IMG/VR virus record: IMGVR_UViG_3300010158_000120
Coordinates: 1 to 45,138 of that record
Length of the DNA stretch: 45,138 nt
Reading direction: 5' to 3' (one strand)
From: a virus
Shown: positions 5,854-9,918 of the stretch, one piece after another
Layout of the letters: the number at the start of each line of letters is the position of its first letter
How positions within the stretch are numbered: position 1 is the stretch's first letter
Made by a program: the position numbers and the translations under genes
Notes under the pieces: model-generated
The model's database searches: none
Told to the model about the DNA's origin: nothing
Seen by the model: only the letters and a program-made list of their open reading frames with translations

Positions 5854-5901
5854 TTTCTATGTTACTAGGAACTTAAACGAATAGATTTAATATATTTTTT
5901 G

Positions 5902-5909
5902 TATATTTG
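5902..5909 (+). promoter_or_regulatory. Bacteroidota-type -7 promoter box TATATTTG
   Basis: TATATTTG matches the TAnnTTTG consensus of Bacteroidota primary sigma-factor promoters exactly. It lies directly after a terminator and 15 bases before the ATG of the first gene of the 5.9-9.4 kb operon. No clear TTTG -33 box is present. A related stretch, TGTTATATTAGATTA, precedes the primase gene at 43936. Confidence 0.55.
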
Positions 5910-5914
5910 ATTAC

Positions 5915-5926
5915 AATAAAAGTTAT
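5915..5926 (+). promoter_or_regulatory. AATAAAAGTTAT leader element, copy 4
   Basis: Exact 12-base leader fused to the ATG at 5925. It sits between the -7 promoter box and the start codon, so it would be in the transcribed leader. That argues that the element works at the RNA or translation level. Confidence 0.5.
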
Positions 5927-6698
5927 GAGATTACAGACATCACCCTACCTCACTAGACAGGAAGAGTACAGAGACGACCCTTGGAAAATGCTAATGGTCT
6001 GTTTCATGCTAAATCAAACACATCACAGACAAGTAGACGAAGTTAGAGAACACTTCTTTAACAAGTATAATACAGCACAGCGATTGATAGAAGGCAACGA
6101 CGAAGAGATCATAAGACTTATAAAGCCTTTGGGATTCTACAACAAAAGATTAAAAGCTTGGAAAGAATTCTCGTATCAGTGGTTAGAACTAGTAGCGCAG
6201 TATAAAAATCCCATCTATATACCAGCAGATAAATTAATTGGACTTAAAGGAGTTGGTAAGTACGCATTAGATTCATGGAGAATATTCCAATGTTTCGATT
6301 ACGAAGTGGAACCAGAAGATCATGTGTTAAACTTCTACGTTGAGTGGGCAAGAGCAGAAAAAGAAAGAGTACTTAGAGAACAAGGCACTCCAAAGCCTAT
6401 GACAGTTTATTATGCTCACTATAAAAGTTATAGAGAGGACGAACCGAATTGGAACAATCTAAAAGACTATGTTTGCTGTGTTATGGCAAGAACTCAAGAC
6501 GAAGCAATAGAGAAAACAAAAAGAATTGCATTGAAACGTGAAGGCGCTGTACACATTAAAATTGCAGGTATCGGTCATGGTAAAGTAGAGTGGGTTGACG
6601 AAGAGCATTGGTTGGATACTGATCCTGAATACTATCACATACATACCGAAGCAATGTGGAAAAGAATGGAAACAAGAAGAATACTAGAAAATAAATAA
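5925..6698 (+). CDS. HhH-GPD DNA glycosylase, MBD4-like, 257 aa
   Basis: A helix-hairpin-helix GPD-family base-excision glycosylase, closest by eye to MBD4. DPWKMLMVCFMLNQT (18-32) corresponds to the start of the MBD4 domain. LKGVGKYALDSWRIF (about 107-121) is the helix-hairpin-helix, and EPEDHVLNFY (129-138) carries the presumed catalytic Asp at about 132. Such enzymes remove mismatched or modified pyrimidines such as thymine or 5-hydroxymethyluracil. Residues after about 150 form an extra C-terminal region absent from MBD4. I use ATG 5925: an upstream in-frame TTG at 5907 lies inside the promoter box. It leads a four-gene operon with modification-type proteins. Confidence 0.8.
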   Translation: MRLQTSPYLTRQEEYRDDPWKMLMVCFMLNQTHHRQVDEVREHFFNKYNTAQRLIEGNDEEIIRLIKPLGFYNKRLKAWKEFSYQWLELVAQYKNPIYIPADKLIGLKGVGKYALDSWRIFQCFDYEVEPEDHVLNFYVEWARAEKERVLREQGTPKPMTVYYAHYKSYREDEPNWNNLKDYVCCVMARTQDEAIEKTKRIALKREGAVHIKIAGIGHGKVEWVDEEHWLDTDPEYYHIHTEAMWKRMETRRILENK

Positions 6699-6699
6699 T

Positions 6700-7869
6700 A
6701 TGATTACAGCAAACCAAAAATGGATTACAACCACACCGTATTACGAAGAATTTTTACGCTATTATCAAATGGCTAAAACACAACAACAAGAGTGTAACTT
6801 AGGAATTATAAAACATGCAGATAGCTCTGTGCCCGATGACTTAATGAAACACGTTGAACTATACGACGTGGTTGAAAGAAAGTACGCAGGATTCTCACAG
6901 ATAGTTAACGATGTTTTTTATGGTTTTTCCGAAGATCACCCTTACTGGAACAAAATGACTCAAGGTCACATGACAAAACAGAGAGAAACTGTTTCTAAAA
7001 ATTGGACAGGCAAGCGCAGCGTGTTCGGTTTAAGGGAGTGGATTTATTTGTTTTTGTTTCACAGATTAACAGGATCTGCTATTAACTACTCGATGAAGCC
7101 TTCAGGCTATCACAACACGCTCTTGTTCGAGATGCATCAAGCTGACAATATTGCTCAGCTGATAGACATCATAAAAGGAGCCACTAAACCATTCTACACA
7201 TCGGTAGGCTATCAGTTTCCAAGTTTTCCTAAACCTCAAGGCAATTACAAACGTGGAGGAGATTATTTCCTTTGCGAATTCGTTCCTCAACTCGCAGAAG
7301 ACGTAGCTAACTTCTTAGAGCAGGGCGAGAAAAAAGACTTGAGACAAGTAGGAGACTTTATGTTTAAGTGGAACACAGACAGAGGCCTTAGAGCTTTCAG
7401 ATTCCAGTACGCTGCTTTTATTGCTGACATAGCAGATTGGTTCCCTGAATTCGTTAACCGTGAAAGTCCATTTTATTACGGTACGAACGCAAAGGAATGC
7501 GTTAGCTATTTAGCAAAGAAGTCTACTAAAATGCAAGAAGAAACGTTTTTGGATTCAGTAATGATGAAGATATACGACGACACTGGCAGTTATCCGTACA
7601 ACGCAGAGGACGTAACGTGCGACTCAATTCGATGGATTGAGAACTACGTAAAACCTGGAGCGGACTACGATCACTTAGATTTCGATCATGTATGGAACAG
7701 CAGCAAGATTATAGACCATCCATACGGTCGACAGAAAGCAATGTTAGATCTTGGTCTTGTCCCAAGTTTTAACGGTATTACAGAACACCCTTCCGATGAC
7801 AAGGTACTTAAATCACTTCTTATAACAGAAGAGCAATACAAGGACAGGGTACAACAACATTATAAATGA
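6700..7869 (+). CDS. Putative DNA base-hypermodification enzyme, aGPT-Pplase-like, 389 aa
   Basis: Resembles, by eye, the helical 'alpha-glutamyl/putrescinyl thymine pyrophosphorylase' superfamily, which includes amino-acid:DNA transferases and 5-hydroxymethyluracil DNA kinase helical domains of thymine-hypermodifying phages. Supporting features are FLFHRLTGSAINY followed by GYHNTLL (about 128-148), an Arg/Phe/Gln helix ending in ADIADW, a Gly-rich turn FYYGTNAKE, and an acidic C-terminal segment (DYDHLDFDHVW). No P-loop is visible. It starts one base after the glycosylase stop and overlaps the next gene by four bases. Membership in this superfamily needs a profile comparison. If wrong, it is an uncharacterised helical protein tied to the glycosylase. 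Confidence 0.45.
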   Translation: MITANQKWITTTPYYEEFLRYYQMAKTQQQECNLGIIKHADSSVPDDLMKHVELYDVVERKYAGFSQIVNDVFYGFSEDHPYWNKMTQGHMTKQRETVSKNWTGKRSVFGLREWIYLFLFHRLTGSAINYSMKPSGYHNTLLFEMHQADNIAQLIDIIKGATKPFYTSVGYQFPSFPKPQGNYKRGGDYFLCEFVPQLAEDVANFLEQGEKKDLRQVGDFMFKWNTDRGLRAFRFQYAAFIADIADWFPEFVNRESPFYYGTNAKECVSYLAKKSTKMQEETFLDSVMMKIYDDTGSYPYNAEDVTCDSIRWIENYVKPGADYDHLDFDHVWNSSKIIDHPYGRQKAMLDLGLVPSFNGITEHPSDDKVLKSLLITEEQYKDRVQQHYK

Positions 7870-8363
7870 AACAAACAAAACAACGCGATGCCTTTAAAAT
7901 AAAAGCAACAGGCAATATCGCAGAAAAAATAGTGTACAATCACTATTCAAAAAAACACCAAGTAGAAATTAACACAGACGAATTCGGTTATTGGGACATG
8001 AAAATTGATGGAGCTACTGTACAAGTAAAAGCAATTACTCCATTCGTTAAATTTGATTGTTGGGCAATTAACGAGGGTAAAACCACGCAGAATATAAACA
8101 ACATATTCAAGTGCGATAAGTTTTTAATTTTATCTCTACCCTCTAGAGTACCACACGAATACGATGGTTATGTATTAGAAGTAGATCCTAAAGAATGCAT
8201 GACAAAAGTATTAGAAGGATCTTTTAATCCAGAGAAAAAAATATCTTTAGTTATTCCAAGAAATCCTGCTTATATTAAGAAGATTTTTAAGATAACTAAC
8301 GAGGAAGAAAAAAATATCTTAGAACACGGTACATCTATATTTAGAAAAAAATTAACAAAATAA
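7866..8363 (+). CDS. PD-(D/E)XK nuclease-like protein, 165 aa
   Basis: Shows the core of the PD-(D/E)XK nuclease fold: a helix with E20 (GNIAEKIV), then D44 in GYWDMKID and Q53-V-K55 in ATVQVKA on successive strands. The Q-x-K form occurs in several active and inactive members. The length suits a single-domain nuclease. It overlaps its neighbours on both sides (ATGA, TAATG), so it is translated with the two putative modification enzymes. It may cut unmodified host DNA or process a repair intermediate; the substrate is unknown. Confidence 0.6.
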   Translation: MKQTKQRDAFKIKATGNIAEKIVYNHYSKKHQVEINTDEFGYWDMKIDGATVQVKAITPFVKFDCWAINEGKTTQNINNIFKCDKFLILSLPSRVPHEYDGYVLEVDPKECMTKVLEGSFNPEKKISLVIPRNPAYIKKIFKITNEEEKNILEHGTSIFRKKLTK

Positions 8364-9367
8364 TGAGTGAAATTTTATTTCCAAACACTTGCGAAGTAGA
8401 ATTTAAAGGCAAAAAACCAAAGGACTCTTGGATGCGAGATTGGTCACTAGATCAACGTATCGAAAAGTTCTTTGAGTTCTGCCAAAAATTCGATAATAGA
8501 AAAGACTCTTTGTTAAAGACAGAGTATCAAATCTTTTCACATCGCTTGCATTGGCACGAGCACCCATATTGTTACTACATGAGGGACAATGTTACTGACA
8601 ACGAACTAAGAATGTTTTATACTTTAGTGTTTAGTTTTAGTAACGAACATTGGGGAACTTTTATGAAGTTAGCCAAAGAAGGTGAAGAAGCTACTAAAGA
8701 GCACTTCATTAACAATCGTCATGCTAGAAACGACTTATTCCAAATCTACTATCCAAAAGGTACAGACGTTAAACATTGGTTGCTACACGGACCTAGAATT
8801 GCTGGTCAAGAATTGGCTTACGTTTTACAGGACGTTGAAGATGGTAAGCGTGGAAAGTATACAATGATGGAGTTTGCAAAGATTCTTGAGAAGTATTTTA
8901 AACAGCATCAAAACTTTAGAAGTCCTTTGTATCCATGTAAGAACACAGCAAGATATATCGCAATGAGTTATCCACACTTGGTAGATCCTGAATCTATCTT
9001 ATTCGGTGGTACTGGTCACTTCGATGGATTGCACCAGATATTCGGTGGTCAGAACCTAAACGGTAAAGTTAAGTACACTATTAACGAAGCTGGAGCATTC
9101 ACGCCTGAGAACAAACAGGCAGAGCAATGGTTATATCAGATGGATCTGTTAGTGAATCACCCGTTAAACCCAATGACTGAACAGAAGTATCTGAACATTG
9201 AAGACAAGACCTGTTTCTTTTGGAAGCACATCGCAATCTCTCATGGTGAAAAGAAACCTACCAAAAATATACCTTACACTTGGATCTTTCCAGACACATT
9301 CAGTTTGGCTAAACAAGACCAAGAGGAATTCTTAGACGGCATACAGCACAGAAGTTTAATGTATTAG
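8363..9367 (+). CDS. Putative second aGPT-Pplase-like protein, 334 aa
   Basis: A helical, aromatic-rich protein with features resembling the same hypermodification superfamily as the gene at 6700: KNTARYIAMSYPHLVDPES (about 194-212), then the Gly-rich turn FGGTGHFDG and a C-terminal LNIEDKTCFFWK. The family is often encoded as side-by-side paralogues, which fits this operon. The match is by eye and weak. It starts one base inside the preceding stop (TAATG) and ends 22 bases before a bidirectional terminator, closing the operon. Confidence 0.4.
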   Translation: MSEILFPNTCEVEFKGKKPKDSWMRDWSLDQRIEKFFEFCQKFDNRKDSLLKTEYQIFSHRLHWHEHPYCYYMRDNVTDNELRMFYTLVFSFSNEHWGTFMKLAKEGEEATKEHFINNRHARNDLFQIYYPKGTDVKHWLLHGPRIAGQELAYVLQDVEDGKRGKYTMMEFAKILEKYFKQHQNFRSPLYPCKNTARYIAMSYPHLVDPESILFGGTGHFDGLHQIFGGQNLNGKVKYTINEAGAFTPENKQAEQWLYQMDLLVNHPLNPMTEQKYLNIEDKTCFFWKHIAISHGEKKPTKNIPYTWIFPDTFSLAKQDQEEFLDGIQHRSLMY

Positions 9368-9447: not shown

Positions 9448-9918
9448 CTACTCTTCGGCCTCGAGCTCGGGTGTGATTGGATTCACGTCCCTGCGGTACC
9501 ATTTACCTGCTATATTCTCGTTATAGCTTTCCACCTCTAAAACCCTAAGTGTCATTTGATAATAGGTCTCCCAATAACTCATCTGTTTCTTCGTGGTGCA
9601 GACCCTTAATATTTCTCTAGTGAATGCTTCTTTGCCAAAAGTCTTAATGTCCTCTGTAACCAATTTACTCGAACCGTAATAGTCTACCCAATTACTCTCT
9701 TTGATCTCCTTTCTTTTCTTTGGAATACGGCCCGGTTTTATCCACTCCGAGATTTCTTTCTTCGTTAAGATTTTAGTTAGAACGTTTCTAAGGATTTTTT
9801 TGCCGACATAAAATTTGCCAGTATTATTGTTGGTAACTTTGTAGACAAATCCTACAGCATTATCTGGGAAATCTTTTAATTGAGTGAGCTGATTCCCTTC
9901 GTATAACCAATTTGACAT
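9448..9918 (-). CDS. GIY-YIG-like endonuclease, 156 aa
   Basis: Residues 23-41 (GFVYKVTNNNTGKFYVGKK) are a degenerate GIY-YIG motif, followed by YYGSS (about 75) and a helix like GKEAFTREIL, the pattern of free-standing phage GIY-YIG/Seg-like endonucleases. Homing endonucleases of this type cut DNA and spread between phage genomes. It is the last gene of the minus-strand block. Its own ATATTTATTA box and its position beside a terminator are consistent with a later insertion. Catalytic activity is inferred. Confidence 0.7.
   Translation of the reverse strand: MSNWLYEGNQLTQLKDFPDNAVGFVYKVTNNNTGKFYVGKKILRNVLTKILTKKEISEWIKPGRIPKKRKEIKESNWVDYYGSSKLVTEDIKTFGKEAFTREILRVCTTKKQMSYWETYYQMTLRVLEVESYNENIAGKWYRRDVNPITPELEAEE

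Follow-up and report, generated by a model that had tools for sequence, protein, structure and literature searches.

Two PUGT-like proteins of a coupled phage operon and their probable role in hypermodification of 5-hydroxymethylcytosine

The virus record IMGVR_UViG_3300010158_000120 is a 45-kb virus fragment (45,138 nucleotides, hereafter the window) with a tail or baseplate protein and a DNA primase among its proteins tested, and it carries on the plus strand a compact operon of four genes, which is the subject of this study. Gene 1 (5925-6698, 257 aa from its ATG) encodes an MBD4-like mismatch glycosylase with a separate C-terminal domain, gene 3 (7866-8363, 165 aa) a PD-(D/E)XK-like protein, and genes 2 (6700-7869, 389 aa) and 4 (8363-9367, 334 aa) two probable base-modifying enzymes with a predicted PUGT-like fold. 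Genes 1 and 2 are separated by a single base, genes 2 and 3 overlap by four bases (ATGA) and genes 3 and 4 by one (TAATG); the coupling reported in a preliminary description of the sequence is borne out by these coordinates and junctions, the genes are translationally coupled, and all four are kept as protein in relatives. Directly before gene 1, on the same strand (5898-5924), lies the block GTATATTTGATTACAATAAAAGTTATG, which is invariant across ten related loci with variable flanks and holds TATATTTG, 15-22 bases 5' of the gene 1 ATG; the invariance extends from GTATATTTG to the ATG itself. Such conservation fits a candidate promoter or leader, and to this extent agrees with the single promoter proposed earlier, although the promoter is unproven and TATATTTG has four copies in the window.

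Sequence and profile searches with genes 2 and 4 returned no match in Pfam, PHROGs or the PDB, and no sequence match was obtained among 50,697 phage records; in IMG/VR gene 2 has more than 500 relatives and gene 4 about 400. AlphaFold models made from alignments of 48 and 50 relatives, respectively, are confident, with a mean predicted local distance difference test score of 90.2 for gene 2 and 91.5 for gene 4. Compared with the PDB by VIA-align, both place first PUGT (8z2n), with Z 9.4 over 208 residues for gene 2 and Z 9.6 over 225 residues for gene 4, followed in both lists by AGOG-type helix-hairpin-helix (HhH) glycosylases and DUF2419 proteins (Z about 7-9). PUGT, or gp46 of Pseudomonas phage PaMx11 (family ADDT, PF18724), is a thymidine-hypermodifying enzyme, a 5-phosphomethyl-deoxyuridine glycinyltransferase. 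Foldseek alone found no match in the PDB for either model, and VIA-align was needed; against BFVD, Foldseek linked the gene 4 model to two proteins annotated as having an amino acid:DNA transferase domain, one its own homologue and the other 385 aa long, and to Pplase1, 5-hydroxymethyldeoxyuridine (5-hmdU) kinase and ADDT proteins.

The last core helix of both families contains a motif, E-x3-C-x3-[KR]-[YHWF], which was defined after inspection and is present in 440 of 464 open reading frames (ORFs) of the gene 2 and gene 4 families versus 2 of 1,977 other ORFs. One half of it, E-x3-C, occurs in ADDT, and the other, C-x3-K-Y, in HMUDK, the matching residues being, in PUGT, E243 and C247 and, in HMUDK, C269 and K273-Y274. 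E303, C307 and R311 are invariant in gene 2, and the end of its structural alignment with PUGT (318 to 258) agrees with the pairing of C307 and C247. Gene 4 has the version E-x3-C-x3-K-H, placed 50-80 residues after an HMUDK-like G-x-G-x3-G-[LIV]. Both proteins share with PUGT the all-helical HhH-glycosylase-like fold, E-x3-C in the corresponding C-terminal helix and a phage DNA-modification context, but they are larger, have no profile match to the PUGT family and are linked to a hydroxymethylase of deoxycytidine rather than deoxyuridine monophosphate (dCMP and dUMP). Gene 4 also resembles HMUDK_hel (PF18723; aGPT-Pplase1) in the combination and similar spacing of G-x-G-x3-G-[LIV] and E-x3-C-x3-K-[YH] and in its BFVD fold neighbours, but it stays below any sequence threshold and is not found in three long contigs that keep gene 2. 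Taken at the level of fold, the models support a place for genes 2 and 4 in the aGPT-Pplase / ADDT-HMUDK group.

The genomic surroundings of the relatives were counted over 61 non-redundant loci and 14 long contigs of at least 100 kb, all contigs being fragments. Over the 61 loci the neighbours are a protein of about 356 aa, here called U356 (42 loci), a PALP-type pyridoxal phosphate (PLP) enzyme (37), a gene of the thymidylate synthase (TS) family (24), nucleotide-modification domain 1 (21) and dCMP deaminase (20), together with T4-type replication genes. PALP and U356 are each present in 12 of the 14 long contigs, the hydroxymethylase is present in 9, and the distance from the gene 2/4 pair is often tens of kb. 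In the closest long relative (G001), for instance, the operon occupies 116-120 kb, far from PALP and U356 at 0.5-3 kb; these two partner genes are not in the window. In locus L084 the TS gene lies about 1.2 kb behind PALP. Some cassettes (L080, L243) consist of TS, gene 2, PALP and U356 without gene 4, and in them gene 2 and PALP overlap. Because gene 4 is lacking in these cassettes and in three contigs of 101-260 kb that have gene 2, gene 2 is the core component and gene 4 a step that is usual but can be dispensed with.

The linked TS-family gene is a dCMP hydroxymethylase of the T4 gp42 type (E 3e-100 to 1b49), and all copies checked have Asp at the position of E. coli Asn177, as T4 gp42 itself does. 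In the TS/gp42 family, Asp at this position selects dCMP over dUMP. The Asn is kept in the ThyA controls and in the true ThyA copies of the genome G006 and of Aeromonas phage 44RR. T4, unlike the phages described here, pairs gp42 with glucosyltransferases, and a search of 12 records for its alpha-glucosyltransferase AGT (PF11440) found none. U356 nevertheless recalls the second of the T4 glucosyltransferases: its N-domain resembles the beta-glucosyltransferase over 65 residues (hhalign 63%, E 7e-5, the best of ten T4 proteins), and a search of the 12 records with PF09198 gave weak, sub-threshold hits, chiefly on U356 (in four records). The similarity is undetected beyond this N-domain segment, and 44RR has U356 joined to an HMUDK-like domain in a single protein. 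The fusion protein, ORF233c of Aeromonas phage 44RR2.8t (L255:8001-10388), has 795 aa, with a U356/beta-glucosyltransferase-like N-half and an HMUDK-type C-half, and is annotated as hypothetical; the same genome encodes ThyA and a second, shorter TS-family gene. This fusion ties recognition of 5-hydroxymethylcytosine (hmC) to the fold group of the kinases and transferases. An alternative assignment of U356 to SGNH hydrolases, from the motif GDSH...GNID, was dropped after the similarity to beta-glucosyltransferase was found.

From this analysis it is moderately probable, in our opinion, that genes 2 and 4 encode enzymes of the PUGT/ADDT, HMUDK and HhH-glycosylase fold which act in a phage hypermodification pathway, and that their substrate is most likely 5-hydroxymethylcytosine; the base is assigned from relatives that are 59-95% identical in gene 2, and for the phage of the window itself we infer it from them. 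We propose that a gp42-type enzyme would make hydroxymethyl-dCMP, which would then enter the phage DNA, and that the 389-aa enzyme, with the beta-glucosyltransferase-like U356 possibly serving for base recognition, would activate or substitute the 5-hydroxymethyl group, as may be supposed by analogy because of the known PUGT and HMUDK biochemistry. The 334-aa enzyme, where present, might add another activation or transfer step, and the PALP-type enzyme would provide or trim an amino-acid-derived group. The amino-acid donor and the PLP step are suggested because of the PALP gene itself and because a similar arrangement is seen in Pseudomonas phage EKU1: a PLP gene annotated as threonine dehydratase adjoins the ADDT gene there, although it has no detectable relation to the PALP family described here.

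A number of results weigh against this proposal. Neither gene 2 nor gene 4 matched Pfam ADDT at E 10 (13 genomes; 98 aligned members) or HMUDK_hel (8 genomes; 98 aligned members), and hhalign of the 389- and 334-aa families with ADDT and HMUDK stayed below significance. The margin of Z 9.4-9.6 over AGOG and DUF2419 is modest for helical proteins. No hydroxymethylase was found in the window (45 kb), nor was one, or any TS-family gene, in G001; 13 of 223 loci with gene 2 lack gene 4, and so do contigs of 260, 149 and 101 kb that carry gene 2. For G001 the hydroxymethylase may lie beyond the contig end, because PALP ends 549 bases from it. The absence of gene 4 from the same three contigs led us to reject the idea that the 389-aa enzyme needs it as an obligate kinase. 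As to the profiles, HMUDK and ADDT, a known pair, are barely linked themselves by hhalign (E 0.003-0.008), and the comparison of HMUDK with the 334-aa family (E 0.015) outranks the decoys when started from HMUDK, but not when started from the 334-aa family. The preliminary description had put the proteins starting at 6700 and 8363 into the aGPT-Pplase/amino-acid:DNA transferase superfamily and had named a lack of profile similarity, together with canonical nucleosides only, as grounds to give this up; the profiles of HMUDK_hel and ADDT show no match, and the placement holds by fold, with PUGT on top, but not by sequence profile. For the superfamily placement we let the predicted structures overrule the profiles.

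The alternative that survives best, although we consider it unlikely, is a thymidine hypermodification as in phages M6 and PaMx11, in which the gene 2/4 pair would phosphorylate and aminate 5-hydroxymethyldeoxyuridine. PUGT, the sole characterised solved match, does act on 5-phosphomethyl-deoxyuridine, the fold neighbours include 5-hmdU kinases and ADDT proteins, and the neighbourhood of the PLP and ADDT genes in EKU1 speaks for the same chemistry. It is the partners that argue for cytosine: similarity and the Asp both mark the linked TS-family genes as dCMP hydroxymethylases, ordinary ThyA is separately encoded in G006 and 44RR, and U356 resembles the hmC-specific enzyme of T4. The hypermodified thymine suggested at the outset is, for the first two of these reasons, probably wrong.

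It would be still less expected for genes 2 and 4 to encode base hydrolases or DNA glycosylases of the wider HhH/DUF2419 fold that take part, alongside the MBD4-like enzyme and nuclease, in repair or in destruction of host or competitor DNA. This improbable reading draws on the AGOG and DUF2419 (queuosine salvage) structures next in the lists and on the glycosylase and nuclease-like neighbours in the window, but PUGT comes first for both models, the conserved partners are genes of nucleotide modification and not of repair, and the glycosylase and the nuclease are absent from most loci. No positive evidence was found for the host-DNA degradation set that had been mentioned as a possibility. Hardly credible, finally, is another cytosine handle, such as a C5-methyltransferase-like product analogous to the 5-carboxymethylcytosine of CmoX/CmoY (PMC12783734), for a C5-cytosine-methyltransferase homologue does follow U356 in 16 of the 61 loci but is absent from most, and the hydroxymethylase occurs as a partner more often.

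Taking together the proposed hmC pathway and its distribution, we may suggest something broader, for which we see about equal reasons to believe and to doubt: that environmental phages, T4-like and others and nearly all known from metagenomes only, have an undescribed pathway that turns 5-hydroxymethylcytosine into a new amino-acid-derived base by means of a PLP enzyme, a partner resembling beta-glucosyltransferase and enzymes with the fold known from thymidine hypermodification. If so, the hundreds of gene 2 and gene 4 relatives in public virus contigs, which have no Pfam or PHROG name, would point to a new DNA base that is made by a widespread route, the activate-and-aminate strategy would extend from 5-hydroxymethyluracil to 5-hydroxymethylcytosine, and phages would possibly have an alternative to T4-type glucosylation against restriction. 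The hydroxymethylase, the 389- and 334-aa proteins, PALP and U356 make a testable cassette, for which Aeromonas phage 44RR can serve as a cultured proxy.

The other two genes of the operon belong to its periphery. The gene 1 protein matches Pfam HhH-GPD over the cut-off (residues about 6-148), and among solved structures MBD4 is its best match (E 5e-18), with similarity throughout the N-terminal part; it shares with MBD4 the PEDH with the catalytic-type Asp and has GVGKY in place of GIGKY, so that the MBD4-like glycosylase with HhH and catalytic Asp of the first description is confirmed. Since Tyr occupies the position of the Nth lyase lysine, it is probably monofunctional. The C-terminal part of about 100 residues (about 157-253) is a separate domain, unrelated to MBD4, that is also free-standing in 25 ORFs, upstream of gene 2 in other phages. 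A Pfam search found no methyl-CpG-binding domain in the 257 residues, for which reason we call the protein MBD4-like and not MBD4. MBD4 excises thymine and 5-hydroxymethyluracil opposite G. By analogy, gene 1 fits a role in repair of deaminated hydroxymethylcytosine, and may remove the 5-hydroxymethyluracil or thymine opposite G that deaminated modified cytosines would leave. Glycosylases about 29% identical to its N-terminal domain (E 1e-11 to 4e-12) were also seen in Stenotrophomonas, Xanthomonas and Janthinobacterium phages (H1-H7), some of them annotated as ENDO3c or endonuclease III.

Gene 3 conserves E20, D44 and Q53-x-K55, that is the E/D/[EQ]-x-K pattern of PD-(D/E)XK-like proteins; the active-site part of the earlier assignment stands but has no profile support, as no solved nuclease was matched up to E 1. 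At the same site it is exchanged for a version about 35% identical in loci whose gene 2 is 97% identical, and such an exchange is typical of an accessory, which might possibly act on unmodified DNA. The nuclease-like and glycosylase genes are found in 8 and 21 of the 61 loci, respectively, and are lineage-specific accessories; because of this, the previously suggested cutting of DNA by modification state falls outside the conserved system.

Several further observations were made around these genes. The methyltransferase homologue behind U356 (L167:5480-6703 and 15 similar) has SSVCPCAGLS where motif IV normally stands; the CmoX motif is reported as SPPC (PMC12783734), and with SSVCPC in its place we rejected an identification with CmoX. 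PALP-family homologues occur within or beside genes annotated as DNA modification methylase and ParB in Erythrobacter phage R6L (gp1, L257) and Microcystis phage Mae-JY30 (L256:8836-9795), which suggests another modification cassette. A protein of about 138 aa with weak similarity to DUF1643 and uracil-DNA glycosylase (L173:499-1023 and 16 similar) stands just 5' of gene 2 in 17 of the 61 loci. The cassette was also found on contigs binned to bacterial metagenome-assembled genomes of Bacteroidetes, Thermoleophilia, Microbacteriaceae and Opitutales (L242, L243-L245), probably binned phage contigs. Convergent with the operon, on the minus strand of the window (9448-9918), is a gene for a SegE-type GIY-YIG protein, which is present in 21 of the 61 loci and is possibly a homing element tracking the locus.

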